DNA of 22,319 bases from Balneolaceae bacterium (GTDB lineage Bacteria > Bacteroidota > Rhodothermia > Balneolales > Balneolaceae). Shown piece by piece: positions 7,356 to 20,745 of this stretch. The notes beneath the pieces were generated by a model. It searched no databases. It saw only the letters and a list, made by a program, of their open reading frames with translations, and was not told the DNA's origin. The stretch is from positions 1 to 22,319 of the forward strand of contig SKGY01000022.1 in the NCBI GenBank assembly GCA_007117235.1, given 5' to 3'. The translations under genes and the position numbers were made by a program. Positions within the stretch are counted from its first letter, which is position 1. Each line of letters begins with the position of its first letter.

Positions 7356-7507
7356 TCCAATGTAACGTAATTCATCTTCTAAAATCTCCCAAATTGATCA
7401 CATTACCCAATTGAACAGGTTTAATATTTACTTTCATAATGGATAATCAAGTTCAACTACTATATCATTGGGGCACAGTCTTAAAAAAATTAAATTCCTC
7501 AATTGCT

Positions 7508-9058
7508 ATGTATAAATTTACAATCACCATTCTATTTGCAACTCTATTAGGGGTCATTTCATGTACGGTTTCAGATGATAATGATTACGATTTACTGATT
7601 ACAAATGCGGTGATAGTTGATGGAACCGGAGAGTTATCGTATGAGGGAAGTATTCTTGTTCGTGACGGAATTATTGTTGCTTCAGGTGAAGTGGATGTAG
7701 ATCCAGATAGGGTACAGATTGTAATTGATGCAGAAGGGAAGGTGGTTTCTCCGGGTTTTATCGACAGCCACTCTCACGGCAATGCACTTGAAACAAGACG
7801 GTTTGACAACTTTTTATCGATGGGAGCCACTACAATTACACTGGGCCAGGATGGAAGCAGTCCCGGGGGTAGAAATGTTGACAGCTGGATGAATGAAGTG
7901 AATGCTGTTGGAACAGGGCCAAACATTGTTCATCTGATGGGCCATAATACTCTTCGCCGCGAGGTAGAAGCTCCACGAGAGCCGGGGCTGGATGATTCAT
8001 ACATTACTTCAATGCGGGAAATTTTGAGAGCTTCATTAGAAGCGGGTTCATTTGGGATGTCTACAGGCCTGGAATATGACCATGGTACTTTTGCTGATAT
8101 GGATGAACTTGTGGCTCTTGCCAATGAGGTGGCAGAAGTGGATGGTATTATCATAAGCCATATGAGAAATGAAGATGATGACAAAATTGAAGAGTCAGTT
8201 ACTGAGCTATTGAATCAGGGCAGAGGATCCGGAGCACGGGTGCAGGCATCGCACATCAAAATTGTATTTGGTAACGATCCACAACAGGCTGAAAGCGTGC
8301 TTCATTTAATGGATTCAGCACGTGATGAGGGCTTGGACGTAACCGCGGATGTCTATCCATATACAGCCAGCTACACGGGAATCGGGATTGTCTTTCCGGA
8401 TTGGGCTCTGCCCCCAAATGATTTTGATGAAGTAGTGGCCAACCGACGGGATGATCTGGCCGAATATTTGCGAAACCGTGTAAATATGAGAAACGGTCCC
8501 GAAGCTACACTTTTCGGCACAGAACCCTGGGCCGGGATGACTCTTGCAGATGTAGCTGAAGAGCTGAACAAACCTTTTGAAGACGTGTTGATTGATGACA
8601 TTGGCCCGCGAGGAGCCGGAGCGGCATATTTTGTGATGAATGAAGATGTGATGAGAAGATTTCTGATAGATCCTTACGTCATGGTCAGTTCCGATGGCAG
8701 CCCGACTATGCGTCATCCGCGCGGATATGGAAGTTTCGCCAAAATTATTCGTCAATATGTAAATGAGGAGAATCTGCTCTCTCTCGAAGAAGCAGTTTAC
8801 AAGATGAGCGGACTGCCCGCTAAAACGCTCGGCCTGTCAAATCCGGCAAAAGTGGAAGTGCCGCGGGGTTTGATCCGGGAAGGTTTTGCGGCCGACCTGC
8901 TTATTTTTGATCCGGCTTTGGTTCGTGATACGGCAACCTTTGAGGAGCCACATACCTACGCCGAAGGATTTGACTGGGTGTTTGTGAATGGAGTAGCTGT
9001 GATTGAGGATGGTGAGCGAAATGCGAAATTACCTGCCGGTGTGATTCGTAGGCGTTAG
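7508..9058 (+). CDS. N-acyl-D-amino-acid deacylase-like amidohydrolase, lipoprotein (paralog 1)
   Basis: I chose the ATG at 7508 (516 residues) because it opens directly into a lipoprotein signal with lipobox GVISC (C19). An upstream in-frame start at 7439 would add 23 unrelated residues. It shows the amidohydrolase superfamily pattern of D-aminoacylases: DLLITNAVIVDGTG (N-terminal beta domain), PGFIDSHSHG with the HxH metal pair H88/H90, TTITLGQDG, SFGMSTGLEY, a His in ISHMRNEDD (H218), a His in QASHIKIVFG (H249), and the catalytic-type Asp in MVSSDGSPTMRHPRGYGS (D396). These families hydrolyse N-acyl-D-amino acids or related amides; the substrate here is unknown. The usual metal-site cysteine of D-aminoacylases is replaced around GQDG. 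The gene ends directly in hairpin array A and is followed by a tandem paralog. Confidence 0.85.
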   Translation: MYKFTITILFATLLGVISCTVSDDNDYDLLITNAVIVDGTGELSYEGSILVRDGIIVASGEVDVDPDRVQIVIDAEGKVVSPGFIDSHSHGNALETRRFDNFLSMGATTITLGQDGSSPGGRNVDSWMNEVNAVGTGPNIVHLMGHNTLRREVEAPREPGLDDSYITSMREILRASLEAGSFGMSTGLEYDHGTFADMDELVALANEVAEVDGIIISHMRNEDDDKIEESVTELLNQGRGSGARVQASHIKIVFGNDPQQAESVLHLMDSARDEGLDVTADVYPYTASYTGIGIVFPDWALPPNDFDEVVANRRDDLAEYLRNRVNMRNGPEATLFGTEPWAGMTLADVAEELNKPFEDVLIDDIGPRGAGAAYFVMNEDVMRRFLIDPYVMVSSDGSPTMRHPRGYGSFAKIIRQYVNEENLLSLEEAVYKMSGLPAKTLGLSNPAKVEVPRGLIREGFAADLLIFDPALVRDTATFEEPHTYAEGFDWVFVNGVAVIEDGERNAKLPAGVIRRR

Positions 9059-9214: not shown

Positions 9215-10753
9215 ATGACAATCAGACTAACTACTGCACTTACTATAATTCTTTTTGCCATCTCCTGCACTCGGCCGGATTACGATCTGTTGATTAAAAA
9301 CGGCACAATTATCGATGGAAACGGATCGGAAGCCATGTCTGGGCATGTACTGATAAATAACGGTTTGATCGTCCGGTCCGGAGATTTTGATCTGGATAAT
9401 ATTACAGCCACCAAAATCATTGATGCCAGTGGACGTGTGATTGCTCCGGGGTTTGTGGATGCACATTCAAGAGGGGTACCTCAGGAGACTCCGCGGTTTG
9501 ATAATTTTCTTTCCCAGGGAGTGACCACGATCACGCTTGGACTCATTGGCCGAAGTCCCGGGGATGATGATGTTGCAGGCTGGATGAGGGAAGTTGATGA
9601 AATCGGAGCCGGTCCCAATGTGATCCATTTTACAGGACACAGTACGCTTCGAAACCTGACTAATGCCCCAAGGGAAGGGAGTCTGAGTGACTCCTATATA
9701 AACAGGATGAAGGAAATTATTGAAGCATCGATGAGTGCCGGTTCATTCGGCTTATCATACGGACTGGAGTTTGAGCCCGCAAGCTACGCCGATATGACTG
9801 AACTGGTATCACTTGCTTCCGTTGCTGTTGAACATGGGGGTATGATTATGGGGCATGTCCGAAGTGAAGATGATGACCGTATCGAAGAAGCCATCACTGA
9901 AATATTGGATGTAGCAAAGGAGTCAGAAGCGAAACTCAATATTTCGCATCTGAAGATTGTATATGCAAATGACCCCGCCCGTGCTGAAGTAGTACTTGCC
10001 CTGATGGATGAAGCCCGAAAAAATGGAATGAAGGTTACGGCTGATCTCTATCCGTACATAGCGAGTTTTACCACTATCGGGATTGTATTCCCGGAGTGGG
10101 CACGGCCACCGAATGATTTAGGTGAAGTGGTTGAAGCCCGACGTCCTGAACTGGAAGAGTACCTTCGAAATCGTATTCAATTAAGAAATGGTCCGGAGGC
10201 AACTCTGTTCGGGTCGGGACATTGGACAGGGAAAACTCTCAAGGAAGTGGCAGATGAACTGAACAAACCTTTTGAAGACGTTTTGATTGATGACATTGGC
10301 CCCGAGGGTGCGAGTGCTGCCTACTTTGTGATGAATGAAGAAGTGATGCAACGATTCCTGATTGACCCCTATGTGATGGTAAGCACAGATGGCGGACCGG
10401 AAATGCGTCACCCGCGCGGCTACGGCAGCTTTGCAAAAATTATCCGGAAATATGTTAATGAGCTGGAATTGCTGTCACTTGAAGAGGCGATATATAAAAT
10501 GAGCGGACTTCCGGCTTTGACACTTGGACTTACCGACTCTGAAAAAGTGGATATTCAGAGAGGCCTGATACGTGAAGGGTTTGCTGCGGATCTGGTGATA
10601 TTTAATCCTGATCATGTTCGGGATACCGCTACTTTCGAGGAACCACATAGTTTTGCCGAAGGATTTGACTGGGTGTTTGTGAATGGGGTAGTGGTGATTG
10701 AGGAGGGTGAGAGTAATGAAGAATTGCCTGCGGGTATGATTCGAAGGCGTTAG
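9215..10753 (+). CDS. D-aminoacylase-like amidohydrolase lipoprotein (paralog 2) with altered metal site
   Basis: A protein of 512 residues with lipoprotein signal and lipobox FAISC (C18). It aligns along its whole length with the preceding gene (long near-identical blocks such as NKPFEDVLIDDIGP, MRHPRGYGSFAKIIR and GLIREGFAADL), so the two are tandem duplicates. The key difference is at the HxH metal motif: paralog 1 has DSHSHG, this one DAHSRG (H84-S-R86; the codon is AGA, checked in the raw sequence). The following TLGQDGSSP becomes TLGLIGRSP. The other candidate ligands remain (GHVRSEDDD, ISHLKIVYA, VSTDGGPEMRHPRG). The frame is intact, so this is not a decayed pseudogene by length. Activity may be lost or changed. 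It starts 22 bp after hairpin array A and ends in array B. Confidence 0.85.
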   Translation: MTIRLTTALTIILFAISCTRPDYDLLIKNGTIIDGNGSEAMSGHVLINNGLIVRSGDFDLDNITATKIIDASGRVIAPGFVDAHSRGVPQETPRFDNFLSQGVTTITLGLIGRSPGDDDVAGWMREVDEIGAGPNVIHFTGHSTLRNLTNAPREGSLSDSYINRMKEIIEASMSAGSFGLSYGLEFEPASYADMTELVSLASVAVEHGGMIMGHVRSEDDDRIEEAITEILDVAKESEAKLNISHLKIVYANDPARAEVVLALMDEARKNGMKVTADLYPYIASFTTIGIVFPEWARPPNDLGEVVEARRPELEEYLRNRIQLRNGPEATLFGSGHWTGKTLKEVADELNKPFEDVLIDDIGPEGASAAYFVMNEEVMQRFLIDPYVMVSTDGGPEMRHPRGYGSFAKIIRKYVNELELLSLEEAIYKMSGLPALTLGLTDSEKVDIQRGLIREGFAADLVIFNPDHVRDTATFEEPHSFAEGFDWVFVNGVVVIEEGESNEELPAGMIRRR

Positions 10754-10848: not shown

Positions 10849-11427
10849 TCAGAGCTCGAACAGGGTAACTGGAATTATTGCATCGAGTCCAAGGTAGTTT
10901 CTGGCAGATGAGTAACGCCAGTCTTCTTCTCGGTCAACATATCCGCGTTTGACGGGGTTTTGATGTATATACTCTATTTTTTGAATCATCATTCTGTCAC
11001 CATATATGTGTTTTGGATGATAGCCCTCCTGCCAAAATTGATGAACAGAATCAGCGTGGGATGGATTTTTAGCCTTTCTCAGTTTGGACAAGTGCAGATA
11101 GTGTCCGTTATCTGAAAACAGATCGATAATGGCCCGGGCTGTCCATGATTTAAAGGCCTGCATTTTGGATGAAAGCTCGTCCGACTGTAATACCATATGA
11201 ATGTGATTTTCCATAATGACGAATGCGTACAGCTTGGTATCTCTCTTTTCCTGAAGAAACAGAAGTGCGTCTAACAAAATTTGTGTAGCTGTGGGAATGG
11301 CGAAAAGAGGGTATCCTTCAACAACTGAGCTTGTGATGAAATATGGATAGCCCGGGTCATATACTCGATTTCGTGATCGTCCCACTAGTATCTCCTGAAT
11401 TTTCTTATTTCGTTCTCTCAGTAGCAA
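10849..11427 (-). CDS. REP-associated tyrosine transposase (RAYT, Y1/HUH family)
   Basis: A protein of 192 residues. Near the N-terminus it has RSRNRVYDPGYPYFITSSVV, the usual opening of this RAYT type. It has the HUH motif in MENHIHMVL (H75-I-H77) and the candidate catalytic tyrosine Y153 in KIEYIHQNPVKRGYV, followed by WRYSSARNYLG (170-180). RAYTs are single-copy, non-selfish relatives of IS200/IS605 transposases that cut single-stranded REP hairpins. No ATG exists upstream of M72 in this frame; TTG at 11427 is the most reasonable start (frame closed by TAA further up). It is flanked by hairpin arrays B (2 bp after its stop) and C (about 90 bp before its start), matching the gene-plus-REP arrangement known for RAYTs. 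No accompanying TnpB or IS ends were seen. Confidence 0.9.
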   Translation of the reverse strand: MLLRERNKKIQEILVGRSRNRVYDPGYPYFITSSVVEGYPLFAIPTATQILLDALLFLQEKRDTKLYAFVIMENHIHMVLQSDELSSKMQAFKSWTARAIIDLFSDNGHYLHLSKLRKAKNPSHADSVHQFWQEGYHPKHIYGDRMMIQKIEYIHQNPVKRGYVDREEDWRYSSARNYLGLDAIIPVTLFEL

Positions 11428-14323: not shown

Positions 14324-15583
14324 TCAAAAATTCCACTTTAGTGAACCTGCAGCCACACTTCCTGCATTAGAAAATACGGAGTCGTCGCTCCCGAAAAATA
14401 GCTGCGATAGCAGGTTAACATCAATATTCTGCGTAATGGAGTAGGTTATTGAAGGGGAGATAAAAACGGCCTGTTCATCAGGATACCAGATTGCAGCCAG
14501 CGATCCGTTCCAGACCGGTGAAAAGGGATAGCTCGCCGACCCTGTGAATTGGAAACGTGAAAATGAAGGATTGTCGGCCGAAAGCGGCTCACCCAGAAGC
14601 TGAAACTGATCGCGTCCGCCTTCTTTATTGTAAAGACCTTCTAGAACAAGGAACAGGCTGTTTTCAAACATATGGTCGGCGGATAGTGCAGCAATTAAAT
14701 TGGTTTCACGAATGCCCGCCGGGTTTATTTCAATATCGGTGAAGAACATCACCTCTCCCTTAAATCCCGATTGACGAATACTTCCAGCCCAACCACCGCC
14801 AAGAGCAAACCGGTTTCTGAAATAGCCGGTAATGAGTTGGAAATCGTAACCGCGCGTATTAAATCCGTATAGAGCGGCAGCAACGGAGTTTCTCATTTCA
14901 CGGGCCGGACTTAAGGCAACCTCCACACGAGAAGCCCAATCTATAAAATGCTGAATTCGAACAGCATCCGTACCCGGTCTCTCCGGATAATCAAATTCAT
15001 AAAAGGAGTAGATGTTGAAAAGGTCGTTCGGGTTGGTTACCATATTTATCCCCCAGTTCACCCGCTGCCGGCCCACCGTTACCCGCCAGTCATTATTGTA
15101 CCAGTCAAGGTTCAGGCGGTCGGGGATGTAGTGTATCAAAAAGTTATCCTGATCTGCAATAATCCACGATAAATCAAAATATCCGTCATCAAAATCAATC
15201 AGGTCAGCATATGACAATCCCGGTATTTCATTCAGTTCACTTAAAAGGTCGCCGGCAAAAAAGCGGGTTCTCATCTGCCAGTTAAACGTGAGGCTGGAAT
15301 TTATATCATACCTTAAATTCAGCCTATTTTGAAGCCTGTACTCCCAAAAAGAATCCCTCTCGAAGGGTTCAGGCAGATCGGCACTGATCCAGACAGGCAT
15401 CCCCTGCACATATCCGCTGATACGAAGGTTGTCGGTCTGGGCGTGGGTTGTGGTGGTGTTCAACAGGGAAATGAGCAAAAAAAGTATAGCGGTAAGACCC
15501 ACCCCCGACCCCTCCCTATCCCGGCCAAAAAACGGCCGTGACAAGGAGGGGAGCTTTTTCTTAGATTTTTTTATAAACATCAT
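14324..15583 (-). CDS. Outer-membrane beta-barrel (porin-like) protein of the Lol-like operon, signal peptide interrupted by repeat
   Basis: A protein of 419 residues. From residue 50 it is a run of amphipathic strands with aromatic girdles (LRISGYVQGMPVW, LNLRYDINSSLTFNWQM, WRVTVGRQRVNWG) and ends NVDLLSQLFFGSDDS...AAGSLKWNF with a C-terminal phenylalanine. This is an outer-membrane beta-barrel; I do not recognise a closer family. The N-terminus is odd: MMFIKKSKKK, then about 19 residues from a palindromic repeat (L11-G29, SRPFFGRDREGSG), then the hydrophobic core LTAILFLLISLL and THAQ. Without the insert the flanks would join to an ordinary signal peptide. It is the last gene of the LolA-permease-permease-ATPase-barrel operon, 68 bp after the ATPase, so probably the outer-membrane partner of that system (inferred). 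Confidence 0.75.
   Translation of the reverse strand: MMFIKKSKKKLPSLSRPFFGRDREGSGVGLTAILFLLISLLNTTTTHAQTDNLRISGYVQGMPVWISADLPEPFERDSFWEYRLQNRLNLRYDINSSLTFNWQMRTRFFAGDLLSELNEIPGLSYADLIDFDDGYFDLSWIIADQDNFLIHYIPDRLNLDWYNNDWRVTVGRQRVNWGINMVTNPNDLFNIYSFYEFDYPERPGTDAVRIQHFIDWASRVEVALSPAREMRNSVAAALYGFNTRGYDFQLITGYFRNRFALGGGWAGSIRQSGFKGEVMFFTDIEINPAGIRETNLIAALSADHMFENSLFLVLEGLYNKEGGRDQFQLLGEPLSADNPSFSRFQFTGSASYPFSPVWNGSLAAIWYPDEQAVFISPSITYSITQNIDVNLLSQLFFGSDDSVFSNAGSVAAGSLKWNF
15497..15552 (-). repeat. Palindromic element inserted in frame in the barrel gene's signal peptide
   Basis: On the minus strand: CCCCTCCTTGT arm, a hairpin CGGCC/GGCCG around a T-rich loop, an AGGGAGGGG arm, then TCGGGGGTGGGT. 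The CCCCTCC/GGAGGGG arms pair. The same order of blocks is found in inverted orientation at 15603-15653. The inserted length keeps the reading frame and contains no stop in that frame. It encodes residues 11 to about 29 of the barrel protein. Confidence 0.75.
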
Positions 15584-15602
15584 TTAGTTGTTCTAAAAAT
15601 TC

Positions 15603-15653
15603 ACCCCTCCTTGTGGCGTGCTTTTCGGCATAGGGAGGGGCTGGGGGTGGGTC
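15603..15653 (+). repeat. Palindromic element between ATPase and barrel gene
   Basis: On the plus strand: ACCCCTCCTTGT arm, a short imperfect hairpin, ATAGGGAGGGG arm, then CTGGGGGTGGGTC. Arms CCCCTCC (15604-15610) and GGAGGGG (15634-15640) pair. It is the inverted counterpart of 15497-15552, with the barrel start codon between them. Its end overlaps the TGA stop of the ATPase gene (15654-15652), so it fills almost the whole gap between the two genes. Confidence 0.75.
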
Positions 15654-16335
15654 ATTTCCTTTCATCCTTAAAAATCGCACCATCCACCATTGTAATTACC
15701 CTCCGGGCGCGGTCTATCACGCGCTGGTCGTGGGTGGAGAAGATAAAGGTGACGTTTTCCTCTTTGTTCATCTTTTCCATCATATCTAGCAGGTTCATGG
15801 CGGAGTCGGTGTCGAGGTTTGCAGTGGGTTCATCGGCGAGAATGAACTTAGGGCGTGATGCCAATGCCCGAGCAACTGCCACTCTCTGCTGCTCACCGCC
15901 GGATAGTTGTTTAGGCCGGGAGTCGAATTTTTTACTGAGTCCCATGGCCGTCAGCAGTTCTTCTGCCCGCTCTTTCATTTCTGATTTTTCACGCTTTTGC
16001 AACAGCATGATGAACGAGACATTTTCGTAAGCAGTAAAAACCGGAATCAGATTATAGGCCTGGAAAACAAACCCGATATTATTCAGCCTGAAGTTAATCA
16101 GTTCCCGGTCTTTCATGCCGGTGATTCGCGTGCCATCAATCTCTACAAATCCTTCTGTTGGTATATCAAGCCCACCGATCATATTTAAGAGCGTGGTTTT
16201 TCCTGAACCGGATGGGCCACGCACCGTCGTGAATTCACCCTCTTCAAATTCGAGACTCACATCACGCAGGGCATGAACAGGAATCGTATCCGGATTGTAG
16301 ACTTTTGAAAGATTGTGGGTTGTTATGATTGCCAT
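15652..16335 (-). CDS. ABC transporter ATPase, LolD/MacB-type
   Basis: A protein of 227 residues, the usual length of stand-alone LolD-like ATPases. It has Walker A GPSGSGKT (40-47), Q-loop FQAYNLIPVFTAYEN (Q92), signature LSGGEQQR (144-151), Walker B FILADEPTANLD (164-175) and H-loop FSTHD. The A-loop tyrosine region NLSKVYNPDTIPVHALRDVS is typical of the LolD/MacB/FtsE group. It should energise the two FtsX-type permeases encoded just upstream, giving an inner-membrane complex that moves lipoproteins or other hydrophobic cargo rather than an importer. The stop codon touches a palindromic repeat. Confidence 0.93.
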   Translation of the reverse strand: MAIITTHNLSKVYNPDTIPVHALRDVSLEFEEGEFTTVRGPSGSGKTTLLNMIGGLDIPTEGFVEIDGTRITGMKDRELINFRLNNIGFVFQAYNLIPVFTAYENVSFIMLLQKREKSEMKERAEELLTAMGLSKKFDSRPKQLSGGEQQRVAVARALASRPKFILADEPTANLDTDSAMNLLDMMEKMNKEENVTFIFSTHDQRVIDRARRVITMVDGAIFKDERK

Positions 16336-16372: not shown

Positions 16373-16486
16373 CCCCCTTTGAAGGGGGACAGGGGGATGA
16401 TTGGTTGTGAAACTTGTCATTTAAAAAAAATCAATCTGATTTCAATACGTACAGGATCATCCCCCTAACCCCCTTCAAAGGGGGAG
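16373..16486. mobile_element. Element 1: gene-less 114-bp element with palindromic inverted ends (MITE-like)
   Basis: The left end (16373-16401) is a CCCCCTTT/GAAGGGGG palindrome followed by ACAGGGGGATGAT. The right end (16456-16486) is its inverted counterpart, ATCATCCCCCTAA then CCCCCTTCAAAGGGGG. The 50-odd bases between show no ORF and no similarity to the DUF559 gene. The left end, including the flanking AAAGCGTT, is identical over 37 bp to the left end of element 2. It lies between permease B (stop 16491, only 4 bp away) and the ATPase start. The ends match those of two DUF559-carrying elements, so this looks like a non-autonomous relative. Confidence 0.75.
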
Positions 16487-16490
16487 TTTT

Positions 16491-17708
16491 CTATTCTCTT
16501 ACTACCTCCCTGGGGTTCAAGCTCAGCGCCTTAAAAGCCGGATAAATGGCGGCAAGCAGTGCGGTAATAACCACGAGGGTTATGGTTGTCAGATAATCAT
16601 TGGAGTAGGCGATGGGGTAAACAACCGCATCATACCCGAATTCCGCCATCGAATCGCCACCCATAGAGGTCATATCAATCCCTTTTTCCCCGAGATATTC
16701 CAGGGTGAGCCATGCCAGCAGCAGTCCGCCGGCCGCTCCGGTCAGCGTGAGGATAACAGACTCCAACATGATCATAAAAAATACCCGCATCTTGTTCATC
16801 CCAATAGCCAGCAGCATTCCCAGTTCACGCATTCGCTCAAAAATGGCCATCAGCATGGTGTTGAGTATTCCGAAGGCAAGTGCCAGCAGTATCACAGCCA
16901 TAATGTAAACGATCAAGCCTCCTCCCATATCGGTGATATAGCGGAGTTCAGGGGATAGTTCATACCAGGATTCTGCTACAATATTTTCGAATTCGTTGTT
17001 GATATTGCTGGTAACCGCTTCACTGAGGCCTTCATCCTGAAGCATCATTGCAATTTCATGGAAGACTGCATCTCCGAGCAGCTCTTGTAAATCAACATCA
17101 CGTACAAACACATTTCTTTCGTCATACGGATTAGAAGCCGTACGAAAAAGGCCCGAAATAGTAAAAGAGCCTGAGGTAATTTCATTATCAAGATCCTGGA
17201 ATGTGAGCACGATGCGATTTCCGACTTCAACATTTAGCTTGTTTGCAAGCCTTTCACCCAGCAGTACTGGATTTCGGAGCTCACTGTCGAGATAATCACC
17301 TTCAGTCAGATTTTCGTGAAAGGTGGTTGTGGCTCGTTCACGGTCTGTTTGCACACCCCGAATTTGTACCCCTGATGATGTGAGTGGTGATTGAATCATA
17401 CCGCCGATAAGTGCCCGGGCCGACCACGAGAGGATTCGTTCATCTCTATCAAGGAATGAGAAGATATCATCTGAATTTTCGATGTACATCCACGGCTCAC
17501 CTTCAGTGCGAAATTCCGGATGGTGAATTTGTGCATGAGTGATCTCCTCCTGAATCAGGTTTACAAACCGCTGATGAATCCAGCCGTTTGTAAGTGCCGA
17601 TACCAAAATTCCGGCCCATAAACCTGCTACAATCGCCATCAGCAGCACACCGCTCCGCGCCGGATGCCTCCAGATGTTTCGCCATGATATGGATAAGAGC
17701 ATTTTCAT
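16491..17708 (-). CDS. FtsX/LolC-like ABC transporter permease B
   Basis: A protein of 405 residues. The N-terminus SISWRNIWRHPARSGVLLMAIVAGLWAG is the characteristic amphipathic and first membrane segment of LolC/E and MacB permeases. A periplasmic MacB_PCD-like domain follows (about 45-265; LLGERLANKLNVEVGNRIVLTF). Then come three membrane segments of an FtsX domain (IMAVILLALAFGILNTMLMAI, ILTLTGAAGGLLLAWL and TITLVVITALLAAIYPAF), with the coupling segment ERMRELGMLLAIGMNKM. It probably pairs with permease A and the LolD-like ATPase. Its ATG is 5 bp after the stop codon of a DUF559 gene. Confidence 0.92.
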   Translation of the reverse strand: MKMLLSISWRNIWRHPARSGVLLMAIVAGLWAGILVSALTNGWIHQRFVNLIQEEITHAQIHHPEFRTEGEPWMYIENSDDIFSFLDRDERILSWSARALIGGMIQSPLTSSGVQIRGVQTDRERATTTFHENLTEGDYLDSELRNPVLLGERLANKLNVEVGNRIVLTFQDLDNEITSGSFTISGLFRTASNPYDERNVFVRDVDLQELLGDAVFHEIAMMLQDEGLSEAVTSNINNEFENIVAESWYELSPELRYITDMGGGLIVYIMAVILLALAFGILNTMLMAIFERMRELGMLLAIGMNKMRVFFMIMLESVILTLTGAAGGLLLAWLTLEYLGEKGIDMTSMGGDSMAEFGYDAVVYPIAYSNDYLTTITLVVITALLAAIYPAFKALSLNPREVVRE

Positions 17709-17713
17709 ATTAT

Positions 17714-18151
17714 TTAGTCGCGAGTTTTTCGCGCTGATACACGATTTGGCAAAGCGTTCCCCCTTTGAAGGGGGACAGGGGGATGATCCTCAATCCATGA
17801 TTCAATGACCCTTTCTGCATTTCTGATATCTTGTAAAACCTCCTCATCTGTAAATCTAATAACGGTAAAGCCCAGTTCTTCAAGTTTATTCTGTCTTGAT
17901 TGATCCAATATCCACTGCTCTTCCCACTCAAGTGTATATCCATCAACTTCAATAATCAGCATCAACTCTTTGCACATAAAATCAGCAATGAAAAACAGAA
18001 CCGGCCGTTGCCGCAAAAACGTATAACCATACATCTGCCTGCCACGCAAAACCTCATCCCATAGCTTCACTTCAGCATTGGTGGCTTGCTTACGAAGTCT
18101 GCGGGCAAATTCTTTCAGTTTTTTGTTGTAGTACAAGTTTGAATCGTTCAT
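17714..18151 (-). CDS. DUF559 (VSR-like endonuclease fold) protein, copy 1, in element 2
   Basis: A protein of 145 residues starting at ATG 18151. It shows the DUF559 pattern: ARRLRKQATNAEVKLWDEVLRG, FLRQRPVLFFIADFMC (D57), LMLIIEVDGYTLEW (E68, D70), DQSRQNKLEELGFTVIRFTDEEVL. The fold is related to VSR and other PD-(D/E)XK-like nucleases; the biological role of free-standing DUF559 proteins is not established. The usual histidine after EVDG (EVDGYTH in copy 2) is leucine here (L74), so this copy may be impaired. Residues around DHPPVPLQRGN are encoded by the palindromic end of the element, and the last 13 or so by flanking sequence. It is about 86% identical to the copy at 19452-19862. The stop lies 5 bp before the permease B ATG. 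Confidence 0.85.
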   Translation of the reverse strand: MNDSNLYYNKKLKEFARRLRKQATNAEVKLWDEVLRGRQMYGYTFLRQRPVLFFIADFMCKELMLIIEVDGYTLEWEEQWILDQSRQNKLEELGFTVIRFTDEEVLQDIRNAERVIESWIEDHPPVPLQRGNALPNRVSARKTRD

Positions 18152-18207
18152 TTGTCCAATGATCTAAATTCGGGAGATCATCCCCCCAGCCCCCTTCGAA
18201 GGGGGAG
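17759..18207. mobile_element. Element 2: palindrome-ended element carrying a DUF559 gene
   Basis: About 449 bp between permeases A and B. Left end 17759-17787: CCCCCTTT/GAAGGGGG palindrome then ACAGGGGGATGATC. Right end 18177-18207: ATCATCCCCCC, AG, then CCCCCTTCGAAGGGGGAG, the inverted counterpart. The only gene inside is the DUF559 gene, which reads out through the left end. No transposase and no clear target-site duplication could be seen. Length and ends match element 3 almost exactly. Confidence 0.75.
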
Positions 18208-18227
18208 TTTTTGGTGCATATTTTTTT

Positions 18228-19445
18228 CTAAGTTTTCGAGGCTTCCAGTATTTTCAGGGTTAAGATTTTAATTGTCGGATATAAACAGATTATGGTTGTT
18301 AGTATAAAAACCATCAGTCCCTGCCAGAGGAAAATATCCGGCGCTATGGCTGTTGGCATGATCGGTTCAACACCAAACTCAGCAACTACCTCTTCCATTT
18401 CTCCTCCCAGTTCAATAGGATTGAAATAGAAGTAGAGAATTGGGATGATGCCCAGCACAAAACCTGCCAAAACACCCATAATGGTGATAAAGAAGGTTTC
18501 GATGAAGACCACTAAAGCGAGTTTAATTCGCTGCATTCCTACCGAAAGAAGGATGCCGAATTCCCTCATCCGTTCAAGGGTCATGGTTAAGATGGTGCCA
18601 AAGATTCCAAAACCGATAACCACATAAAGGATTCCCATCATCAGGCGTGACTGTGCCTGATCAAATTCAAGGGCTTCTACCAGTTCAGGTATCAGCTCAC
18701 GCCATGTAAAAACTGCCAGTTCTTCATTTTCAAGTTCAGATCGCAATTGTCTGGCAATCGATTCGGTGTCACGGACTCGGTTAGGTGTTACAAGCAGGGC
18801 AGTTATATGATCATCAGCAGAAAGAAGCCACTGCGCATCAGGCAGTGATAGATAGACAAGCTGGTTGTTCATCTCGCGGGTGGGGTGACGCAACAGGCCG
18901 GATATTTCATAAAGCCCGGATGCTGTCATCCCAAATCGTCCCTGCCCAAGCAGTACAAGAGAATCACCCACAGCCAGATTGAGCCGATTAGCCAACCCTT
19001 CGGTTACAACCGCAGTACCGTCATTCGGCTCGAAGAAACGGCCTTCAGTCAGGCGTTCTTTCAAATTATTGAGGCGGTCTTCCCGGTCAACTTCAACTCC
19101 CATCACAAAAGCACCTCGCGTCGCTTCAGCCCCCGCAGCCAGCATAAAGGTTTCAATTCGCGGGATTGTATATTCGACCGACTCGAGCCCAATTACCTGG
19201 TCTGAAAGTTCATCATCGTAATAAAATGCGTTATCAAGTGAAGGCTCATCTTCAAACCGGTAATCCTGAACTTGTATATAACCCGTATGAAATTGGGTCA
19301 TATTGTCGATCATGACATTATGAGCTCCACGCTCGAGCGACTCCAGAAAGAGAGCAAAAACCACAGCAAACATCACCGAACTGACTGTAATCAGCGTCCG
19401 CCGTTTGTTCCTCCAGATATTTCTCCAGGCTAGTTTTAGGTACAT
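18228..19445 (-). CDS. FtsX/LolC-like ABC transporter permease A
   Basis: A protein of 405 residues. The N-terminus KLAWRNIWRNKRRTLITVSSVMFAVVFALF is the LolC/E-type cytoplasmic helix plus first membrane segment. It is followed by a periplasmic MacB_PCD-like domain (VTEGLANRLNLAVGDSLVLLGQG) and a C-terminal FtsX domain with three membrane segments (LYVVIGFGIFGTILTMTL, FFITIMGVLAGFVLGII and GLMVFILTTIICLYPTI) around ERMREFGILLSVGMQRIKLA. Clearly a paralog of permease B, so the exporter is probably a heterodimer as in LolCDE. Its ATG is 6 bp after the stop of the second DUF559 gene. Confidence 0.92.
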   Translation of the reverse strand: MYLKLAWRNIWRNKRRTLITVSSVMFAVVFALFLESLERGAHNVMIDNMTQFHTGYIQVQDYRFEDEPSLDNAFYYDDELSDQVIGLESVEYTIPRIETFMLAAGAEATRGAFVMGVEVDREDRLNNLKERLTEGRFFEPNDGTAVVTEGLANRLNLAVGDSLVLLGQGRFGMTASGLYEISGLLRHPTREMNNQLVYLSLPDAQWLLSADDHITALLVTPNRVRDTESIARQLRSELENEELAVFTWRELIPELVEALEFDQAQSRLMMGILYVVIGFGIFGTILTMTLERMREFGILLSVGMQRIKLALVVFIETFFITIMGVLAGFVLGIIPILYFYFNPIELGGEMEEVVAEFGVEPIMPTAIAPDIFLWQGLMVFILTTIICLYPTIKILTLKILEASKT

Positions 19446-19451
19446 GATTTA

Positions 19452-19862
19452 TTAATTTTCCAAGGAGTTCTCCCTTTGAAGGGGGGCAGGGGGATGATCC
19501 TCAATCCATGATTCAATCACCCTTTCTACATTTCTAATGTCTTTCAAAATCTCTTCATCTGTAAATCTTAATATGGTAAATTCCAACTCCTCGAGTTTAG
19601 CTTGTCTTTGCTGATCCAATATCCATTGTTCCTCCCATTCATGGGTATATCCATCAACCTCAATAATCAGCATCAATTCCTTGCACATAAAATCTGCAAT
19701 GAAGTACAAAATAGGGCGTTGCCGTAAAAACGTATATACGTGCATCTGCCTGCCACGCAAAACCTCATTCCATAGCTTCACTTCAGCCTTGGTAGCCTGA
19801 TTACGAAGTCGGCGGGCAAATTCTTTCAATTTCTTGTTGTAGTACAAGTTTGAACTGTTCAT
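19452..19862 (-). CDS. DUF559 (VSR-like endonuclease fold) protein, copy 2, in element 3
   Basis: A protein of 136 residues from ATG 19862, which matches the start of copy 1 (MN.SNLYYNKKLKEFARRLR). An in-frame TTG at 19910 lies inside the repeat and is rejected. It contains FLRQRPILYFIADFMC, LMLIIEVDGYTHEWEEQW and LEELEFTILRFTDEEIL, so D57, E68, D70 and H74 of the DUF559 core are all present. This is the better candidate for an active nuclease. The tail DHPPAPLQRENSLEN is encoded by the left palindromic end and the first bases beyond it. The gene sits between the LolA-like gene and permease A, with its stop 6 bp before the permease ATG. Confidence 0.87.
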   Translation of the reverse strand: MNSSNLYYNKKLKEFARRLRNQATKAEVKLWNEVLRGRQMHVYTFLRQRPILYFIADFMCKELMLIIEVDGYTHEWEEQWILDQQRQAKLEELEFTILRFTDEEILKDIRNVERVIESWIEDHPPAPLQRENSLEN

Positions 19863-19918
19863 GGCTTCAGCGATATTTATCCGGGCGGTCATCCCCCCGG
19901 CCCCCTTCAAAGGGGGAG
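19470..19918. mobile_element. Element 3: palindrome-ended element carrying a DUF559 gene
   Basis: 449 bp. Left end 19470-19499: CTCCCTTTGAAGGGGGG then CAGGGGGATGATCC. Right end 19889-19918: TCATCCCCCC, GG, then CCCCCTTCAAAGGGGGAG. The element has the same length, ends and cargo orientation as element 2. The DNA between the ends is alignable with element 2 throughout, including the inner CAATCCATGATTCAAT next to the left end. It is inserted between the LolA-like gene and permease A. Confidence 0.75.
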
Positions 19919-19980: not shown

Positions 19981-20745
19981 TTACCTAACCCTCCTCATAT
20001 TTTGTTGCGTAAAAAACGATTCGCTTAAATCTACGTCGAACTCAATGCTCTGATAATTCATAATTGTTCTCTGATCGGGCTTGTCAGCCGGGGTCATAAC
20101 CATTCGTGCCGGGAAAACTCTTCCTCCCATTTCCCCTATGTCCAAAAATTCAATCGTATTAGCAAGTTCATCACGCTGGTCATAATTCTCCACTTTTAAC
20201 TGGATATAATGCTCTTTGTCAACCCATATCAAAACCTTGCCGTACACAATAGGGGTATCCGGTTTTGGGATGAGTTCGAGCACCCAAGCATTACGGCCGT
20301 TGTACTCTTCTTCTTGTAGAATTCTGTGCTCATAATCATCAACAGTAGAACTTTCCCGCACCAGGTCATCATTTGTAAAGTCGGATCCCATCCAGGATTG
20401 CGACATCATTGATGGCGGCATATTAATGGTCCGGTCAATATTAGGAACATAATTCCAGATCTCATTTTGACGCTTCAGATAGGTTGTGCCCTGATCACGA
20501 GCCGGAGCGGTTAACAGAATTAGTGAGTAATTTTCGCCCAGTGACCATGCTTTCATACTAACATCCCGGGTATATCTTGGTCTTTCAATAGTCATCGTCA
20601 TTTCAGCAATGCTAGATTCCCCGTGCATCACCTCTTCCATCCGTTCGATAATATCACCGGCCGTTTGTGCTGAACTAAATTGAAAGAATCCGATTTCGAT
20701 GAGAAATGCAGAGAACGCAATCGCGAATAATTTAGAGTGATTCAT
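19981..20745 (-). CDS. LolA-like outer-membrane lipoprotein-sorting family protein
   Basis: A protein of 254 residues with signal peptide 1-26 (FSAFLIEIGFFQFSSA). It begins GDIIERMEEVMHGESSIAEMTMTIERP and contains YLKRQNEIWNYVPNIDRTINMPPSMM, SWMGSDFTNDDLVRES, VYGKVLIWVDKEHY and the end QSIEFDVDLSESFFTQQNMRRV. These are typical of the LolA-like (PF17131-type) proteins often annotated as outer membrane lipoprotein-sorting protein. They are encoded beside FtsX-type permeases and are thought to shuttle hydrophobic cargo across the periplasm. It is the first gene of the operon leading to the beta-barrel protein. The cargo is unknown, and this is not necessarily the housekeeping LolA. Confidence 0.88.
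   Translation of the reverse strand: MNHSKLFAIAFSAFLIEIGFFQFSSAQTAGDIIERMEEVMHGESSIAEMTMTIERPRYTRDVSMKAWSLGENYSLILLTAPARDQGTTYLKRQNEIWNYVPNIDRTINMPPSMMSQSWMGSDFTNDDLVRESSTVDDYEHRILQEEEYNGRNAWVLELIPKPDTPIVYGKVLIWVDKEHYIQLKVENYDQRDELANTIEFLDIGEMGGRVFPARMVMTPADKPDQRTIMNYQSIEFDVDLSESFFTQQNMRRVR

Follow-up and report, generated by a model that had tools for sequence, protein, structure and literature searches.

In a 22,319-nucleotide stretch of DNA from Balneolaceae bacterium (contig SKGY01000022.1 of assembly GCA_007117235.1, positions 1 to 22,319; this whole stretch is called the window below), three palindrome-ended elements occupy consecutive junctions (J1, J2 and J3) of one operon, and the J2 and J3 copies carry a DUF559 gene. 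They are probably members of a widespread family whose elements have, between two matching units, either a DUF559 gene (encoding a protein with a predicted Vsr/I-Bth0305I-like fold) or no gene at all; the nuclease likely cuts the cognate palindrome, and the element is copied in. These elements have a common anatomy, their end type matches the DUF559 clade, they are spread over genomes, orthologous junctions are occupied, empty or hold single palindromes, and different families are found at one and the same nucleotide. The best reading is a mobile family that resembles REPINs but relies on a Vsr-fold nuclease in place of a HuH transposase, the palindrome being target, scar and swap point. The association and the mobility signature are strong; the role of the enzyme is what we infer.

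The window makes up one contig (C38) in an assembly of 1.59 Mb that is 58% complete. The ends of its elements consist of CCCCCTTYRAAGGGGG, 2-3 nt and GGGGG(G)ATGA in inverted orientation, and the paired arms of each element are 87-93% complementary across 29-31 nt. At the ATPase/permease-1 junction (J1) there is a type A pair without a gene (16373-16485, no strand applicable), made up of a + strand unit (16373-16402; hairpin CCCCCTTTGAAGGGGG, ACA, GGGGGATGAT) and an inverted unit on the - strand (16455-16484; hairpin, TTA, GGGGGATGATC). The type A element at the permease-1/permease-2 junction (J2; 17759-18206, - strand) bears a DUF559 (PF04480) gene of 145 aa (17714-18151, - strand; domain at 17804-18121), with one A unit on the 3' side of the gene, overlapping its reading frame (17759-17788, + strand), and one on the 5' side (18176-18205, - strand). 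At the permease-2/LolA junction (J3) the type A element (19470-19917, - strand) has a DUF559 reading frame of 152 aa from a TTG (19452-19910, - strand; the ATG at 19862 is the more probable start) and A units at 19470-19499 (+ strand) and, on the 5' side of the gene, at 19887-19916 (- strand); the low-coordinate palindrome of this element is imperfect, with one base altered in the hairpin (CTCCC..GGGGG), and reads CTCCCTTTGAAGGGGGG. Since DUF559 frames cross the terminal palindrome (that of J2, 17714-18151, runs through 17759-17774), gene and end overlap. An earlier note on this DNA had described three elements sharing inverted palindromic ends, two of them with DUF559 in one orientation, set between the LolA, permease, permease and ATPase genes with none of these broken. 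All of this holds, with right ends one base further inside than it had placed them; the two proteins match PF04480 (E 2e-26 and 3.3e-26), both are on the - strand like the operon, and the operon is intact.

The unit follows a general plan: a hairpin, its arms formed by a C-run and a G-run, is followed after 2-6 bases by a second G-run, and the tail that comes next is specific to the type. The letters are CCCCCTTYRAAGGGGG..GGGGATGA in type A, CCCCTCCTTnnnAAGGAGGGG..GGGGTGGTT in type B and CCCCTCTnAGAGGGG..GGGGTGTGT in type C, and the tails of the other types are TGAGTC (E), TGGGTC (F), AGAGGT (H) and TGT (D); between types the letters vary while both arms remain complementary. The end palindrome is close to its own reverse complement, so that the two copies of an element are also direct repeats. 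A 26-base end pattern, with as many as 3 mismatches allowed, has six matches in the assembly, all of them in the window, and none when written backwards, which argues against chance; with looser spacing and zero mismatch there are eight units, five in the window and three on contigs C16, C187 and C212. Some units, among them those at L059, L063, L066 and L062, are extended by an additional stem-loop between the hairpin and the second G-run.

DUF559 genes with palindromic flanks were searched for in a main set of 58 genomes (our own and 57 of the order), 33 of which have PF04480 matches. Small genes were taken as frames of up to 260 aa with a score of at least 100 and both flanks in hand, and windows displaced by 900 bp served as the control. 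The inverted flank score exceeded 30 at 49 of the 65 small DUF559 genes and at none of the 55 displaced windows, while a generic detector of a hairpin plus G-run found units on some side of 41 and on both sides of 26 of these genes (displaced windows: 3/55 and 0/55). Weak or partial DUF559 matches scored above 30 in 5 of 18 cases. A control with mismatched partners, by which 14/76 exceed the 99th percentile, was unfit as a null because loci of one type match each other, and the displaced windows were used instead. In a second set, the best 80 of 580 loci from a scan of named genomes, scores above 30 were found at 44 of 73 small genes (0/60 displaced) and generic units on both sides at 31 (displaced, 0). 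Judged by record title, these best 80 of 580 loci come chiefly from Bacteroidota, and also from Chlorobiota, Ignavibacteria, Scalindua/Brocadiales, Nitrospirae and proteobacterial assemblies; the closest named match among them is a Balneolaceae assembly. Seven plasmid loci (cyanobacteria, Deinococcus and Azospirillum; 7 of the 37 plasmid records) have flank scores of 29 to 104, here with no displaced control, and units such as CCCCCagaattGGGGGatttaGGGGG are readable at the cyanobacterial ones. Carriage by plasmids or phages was considered and set aside (2 phage and 37 plasmid records, identity below 60% throughout).

In our own assembly there are five DUF559 matches, a count that may be higher given its incompleteness; palindromic ends lie on both sides of four of them and, for the one that is cut by its contig end, on the side that can be seen. 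Two of the five have type A letters and three have other letters on the common plan. The possibility raised earlier, that DUF559 genes elsewhere in the genome mostly lack these ends, is in substance contradicted, since ends of the common plan are present, though to the letter 3/5 lack the type A ends. Some loci depart from the usual arrangement: on cyanobacterial plasmids L331-L333, dense clusters of C5-N5/6-G5-N3-G5 units surround DUF559 and may be relevant to the small repeats of cyanobacteria that are still unassigned; on a Pseudanabaena galeata plasmid (L337), one long annotated reading frame spans DUF559 and both flanking palindromic units; and at L057, L058, L064, L074 and L075, DUF559 lies within frames of ~960-1330 aa, with typed units at 0/5 and some generic G-run hairpins nearby.

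The nuclease gene and its palindromes behave as one unit, a conclusion supported by the way the end type follows the DUF559 tree. When ends were assigned to seven types within 350 bp of the gene, at least one side could be typed for 53 of 82 DUF559 genes and both sides for 38, and in all 38 the type was identical on the two sides (shuffled mean 9.2, highest 18 in 10,000). On a tree of 78 DUF559 proteins (built quickly, 22 of its 75 inner branches being open), the seven end types on 52 rows need six changes, the minimum possible. The presence of units in a genome also goes with the matching gene: A units were present in 9/10 genomes with a type A DUF559 and in 6/48 without (p 4e-6; within genus 0.013), B units in 11/11 with a type B DUF559 and in 6/47 without (p 5e-8; within genus 0.0009), these p-values being rough because units beside the gene are counted, the type of some genes was assigned by eye and the genomes are related. 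The reversed unit pattern had no occurrence in the 58 genomes.

Pairs without a gene show kinship to the gene-bearing elements in some cases. The B pairs of G019 and G009 retain the 3' end of the gene (0/200 shuffles as high, each), for three A pairs the outcome is borderline or negative (1/200, 16/200 and 2/200, the best match being to the wrong type in two of them), and one further pair shows no gene similarity (71/200); a match of the J1 pair in G026 to an element sits in the unit itself and was left out of this count. The 54-nt interior of the 114-bp J1 copy in the window has no detectable similarity to a DUF559 element (31/200 shuffles as high), so the suggestion that this copy is a non-autonomous derivative lacks support; the two B pairs elsewhere are such derivatives. 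One genome, G005, has 33 A-type units, 26 of them with a CAAT spacer variant, and one typed A gene was found there; the variant units are possibly a gene-less lineage moved in trans.

Orthologous operons were compared between relatives (the permease was found in 23 of 27 genus members searched, and 19 operon stretches were used; with permease 1 identities of 49-63%, some of the more distant ones may be paralogous). At J2, neither element nor palindrome is present in 18 of the 19, and G004 has one palindrome; T1Sed10 (L205) has the full DUF559 element at J2 and no palindrome at J1. The close relative G004 has exactly one palindrome each at J1, J2 and J3 (7 perfect palindromes in all) and no DUF559 match, G026 has a B-type pair at J1, nothing at J2 and a decayed palindrome at J3, and the more distant G024 has its own DUF559 A element at J3. 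In the permease-1 tree T1Sed10 falls outside the window, G004 and G026 (support 97-98), and the simplest history, as judged from these sequences, would be that J2 gained its element before these lineages split and that G004 later lost it precisely, keeping one palindrome; the alternatives are gains that happened independently, or a lone palindrome that came first. At another junction three families come directly after the sequence ATTCAAAAGT|CCCC: G000 has an A pair there, G026 and G008 have a B DUF559 element, and G024 has a C pair. J1 likewise holds two families, A and B. Three families at one nucleotide may be read to mean that the palindromes act as each other's landing sites, the alternative being exchange through the common CCCC/GGGG. 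The elements had been proposed to be small mobile units, and the identical end types (38/38) together with the occupied and empty orthologous junctions make mobility very likely; operons with DUF559 at the same places and no trace of the ends, which would have spoken against the proposal, did not turn up, the genes of G024 (J3, among the 19 operons) and T1Sed10 (J2) both having ends.

The two DUF559 proteins of the window contain PF04480 (DUF559) and, below cut-off, PF18741, and no HuH/Y1 domain (PF01797) in Pfam; in NCBIfam they match only DUF559, below cut-off. No known transposase domain (DDE, HuH or serine) was found in the element proteins by the Pfam/NCBIfam scan. The J2 protein (17714-18151) gave a structure model with pLDDT 84, and by predicted model and sequence profile the catalytic domain has the Vsr/I-Bth0305I homing-endonuclease fold. 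The protein is under purifying selection, and with the predicted fold this suggests that the nuclease likely cuts or copies its palindromes. A role as a defence-system gene was rejected (in PADLOC the first protein has no match and the second a single weak one, E 0.0066), and no Rfam family was found in the window at gathering scores.

In the mechanism that we propose, the DUF559 protein would recognise a hairpin/G-run unit of its own type and nick or cut it, and the break would be repaired from a copy of the element, by which a palindromic site becomes palindrome-element-palindrome. Through slippage or recombination between the end palindromes the element would be lost and a single palindrome kept, which would then be open to the next element, including one of another family. 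Gene-less pairs would rely on movement in trans, the route that is assumed for REPINs with RAYT (REP-associated tyrosine transposase). The units would be found between operon genes because only insertions that spare genes would persist.

A number of observations weigh against this proposal. Scores of 30 or less were obtained for 16/65 small genes in the 58 genomes and 29/73 in the second set, 26 of the 78 tree rows have no type, and the type patterns were drawn up after these flanks had been viewed. The control with DUF559 domains in frames above 260 aa is not fully clean (1/6 score above 30, 4/6 have a generic unit on some side and none on both; in the second set 3/3 score above 30). Units without a matching gene were found (A in six genomes, B in six) and require past presence of the gene or incomplete assemblies. 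The orientation of pairs is not uniform (among the 38 genes typed on both sides, tails in for 27, out for 5, the same way for 6), and in single-stranded folding five A ends did no better than shuffles (z -0.6 to -1.1). The two DUF559 copies of the window are old (synonymous divergence dS 0.90), and a very recent jump is not seen here. Among the genomes compared, no near-identical pair showed a clean gain in one and the untouched empty site in the other, and no target duplication besides the palindrome was seen when filled and emptied sites were compared. Loss to one palindrome is possible by slippage of the 16-bp direct repeats without a nuclease, so that G004 favours precise loss over nuclease-driven gain. 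A clade-wide outward orientation of tails (in the kin of L001/L004) was also considered and dropped, as the two E-type genes typed on both sides have one out and one in.

The units could be ordinary repetitive extragenic palindromes (REPs) moved in trans by common Y1 (RAYT-type) transposases, with DUF559 as a passenger between two of them. Their layout is REP-like, as is typical of RAYT, Y1_Tnp matches occur in 38 of the 58 genomes, and the window itself has a RAYT (10849-11427; NF047646, 108 bits). However, any of the seven unit types lies at only 1 of 30 Y1 loci (the best-scoring ones, some cut by contig ends) compared with 53/82 DUF559 genes within 350 bp, on which count a Y1/RAYT transposase was rejected as the main mover; the RAYT of the window is, by reading, flanked by its own, different palindromes; canonical REPs have a GT[AG]G foot (accessible part of PMC6006769) that is missing from the A units; and a passenger gene would not follow the unit type on its tree. 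We regard this explanation as distinctly improbable. The window holds two separate palindrome systems, the flanks of the RAYT (10849-11427) and the DUF559 units. That the hairpins are transcription terminators or mRNA-stability hairpins at gene junctions, with DUF559 merely between them, is more remote still and hardly credible: the units do lie between genes and T-runs follow some ends on the + strand (GGGGGAGTTTTT from about 18201), but the operon is transcribed on the opposite strand, J2 has no palindrome in 18/19 relatives, and terminators would carry neither a paired inverted tail nor a matching nuclease type.

Spread and loss might also proceed only by homologous recombination or slippage between G-run palindromes, which would then be recombination handles, DUF559 having a host job such as mismatch repair. 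The palindromes are mutual direct repeats, so precise loss needs no enzyme, the family swaps at one nucleotide could be CCCC/GGGG exchanges, and the Caulobacter DUF559 protein VsrA has been proposed to act in repair (accessible part of PMC12907096). This explanation, which we consider unlikely, leaves unaccounted for the clade-specific ends of DUF559, the co-occurrence of units with matching genes and the dispersed gene-less copies. Within the nuclease-driven reading, a variant to which we attach a similarly low probability is that the nuclease acts on the hairpin or cruciform at replication, in the manner of a junction resolvase, and that the moving form of the unit is single-stranded DNA, in place of homing through a double-strand break.

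The operon, on the - strand, encodes a LolA-like protein (19981-20745), permease 2 (18228-19445), permease 1 (16491-17708) and an ABC ATPase (15652-16335), the permeases being of the FtsX/MacB type. Its porin/ATPase junction (J0) has a type F pair without a gene and with tails outward (15496-15653), which shares the plan of type A with different letters; G004 and G026 have an A-type pair there. A single C-type unit (long-loop hairpin, ATTTA, GGGGTGTGTT) lies at 1719-1775 on the - strand, between the genes at 997-1602 and 1783-2130. Elsewhere in the window, two adjoining tandem amidohydrolase-like genes (7439-9058 and 9215-10753) are clearly alike, as judged by reading the translations.

In the literature searched, as far as its texts were accessible, no description of DUF559 with palindromic elements was found; most subscription papers and preprints lie outside it, and an earlier description is possible. 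The system is not described in the accessible parts of PMC12907096, PMC9403480, PMC3943268, PMC3733652 and PMC6006769. DUF559 genes and G-run palindromes are both common in these bacteria, and in the literature found neither has such a partner. Their pairing would give the repeats a likely mover and DUF559 a likely job, each nuclease clade predicting its own substrate, and a further enzyme superfamily would join the few that move short palindromic repeats, which to our knowledge and by PMC6006769 have so far been HuH RAYTs. We rate the system as categorically new, because its enzyme and end anatomy fall outside what defines RAYT elements and insertion sequences of the classical kind, while in its working it is like a REPtron. 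Our belief is evenly divided on the wider claim that these elements form another REPIN-like class, independent of the first, whose Vsr-fold nuclease homes in on C-run/G-run palindromes that match its type. On this view a palindrome would serve as recognition site, as target duplication and as excision scar, rival families would displace each other at one nucleotide, and the range would cover Bacteroidota, Balneolota, cyanobacteria and proteobacteria.

Among known systems, RAYT/TnpAREP with its REPs and REPINs (REPtrons) is alike in having a small nuclease gene between inverted palindromic units, an own unit family per gene and dispersed gene-less inverted pairs, all of which are seen here. It differs in the enzyme, which for DUF559 has a predicted PD-(D/E)XK Vsr-type fold and not HuH/Y1, and in the unit, which here has a second G-run after the hairpin and of which emptied sites keep one palindrome. 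In a foot check covering types A and B, the REP-type GT[AG]G 5' foot was not encountered: the A-type feet of the window are GTT, ACT or CCT before the C-run, and the B-type tails contain GTGG, but on the 3' side. The EDxHD homing endonucleases (I-Bth0305I) share the predicted fold of the catalytic domain, whereas the DUF559 gene is free-standing between palindromes, outside an intron or intein, sits at many palindromic sites per genome and not at one allele, has gene-less kin, and encodes a small protein (mostly an open frame of 110-210 aa in the set examined). The Vsr mismatch endonuclease, which nicks at T:G mismatches and goes with a cytosine methyltransferase, and Caulobacter VsrA are alike in predicted fold and, for VsrA, in the DUF559 domain, but have been studied as repair proteins, with no palindromic element described in the accessible part of PMC12907096. 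Miniature inverted-repeat transposable elements (MITEs) and insertion sequences with terminal inverted repeats likewise have inverted ends round a single gene, gene-bearing and gene-less copies, and presence or absence at orthologous sites; the ends of the DUF559 elements, however, are themselves palindromes and hence also direct repeats, there is no DDE transposase, and between filled and emptied sites the palindrome alone is doubled. The GTAG- and CGTC-tagged REPs and the untagged cyanobacterial repeats cited with them (accessible part of PMC3733652) are also small intergenic palindromes from several phyla, but the tagged ones bear a GTAG or CGTC tag and none is linked to DUF559 in that part of the source. 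A route driven by the DUF559 nuclease would differ from the known movers of bacterial palindromic repeats.

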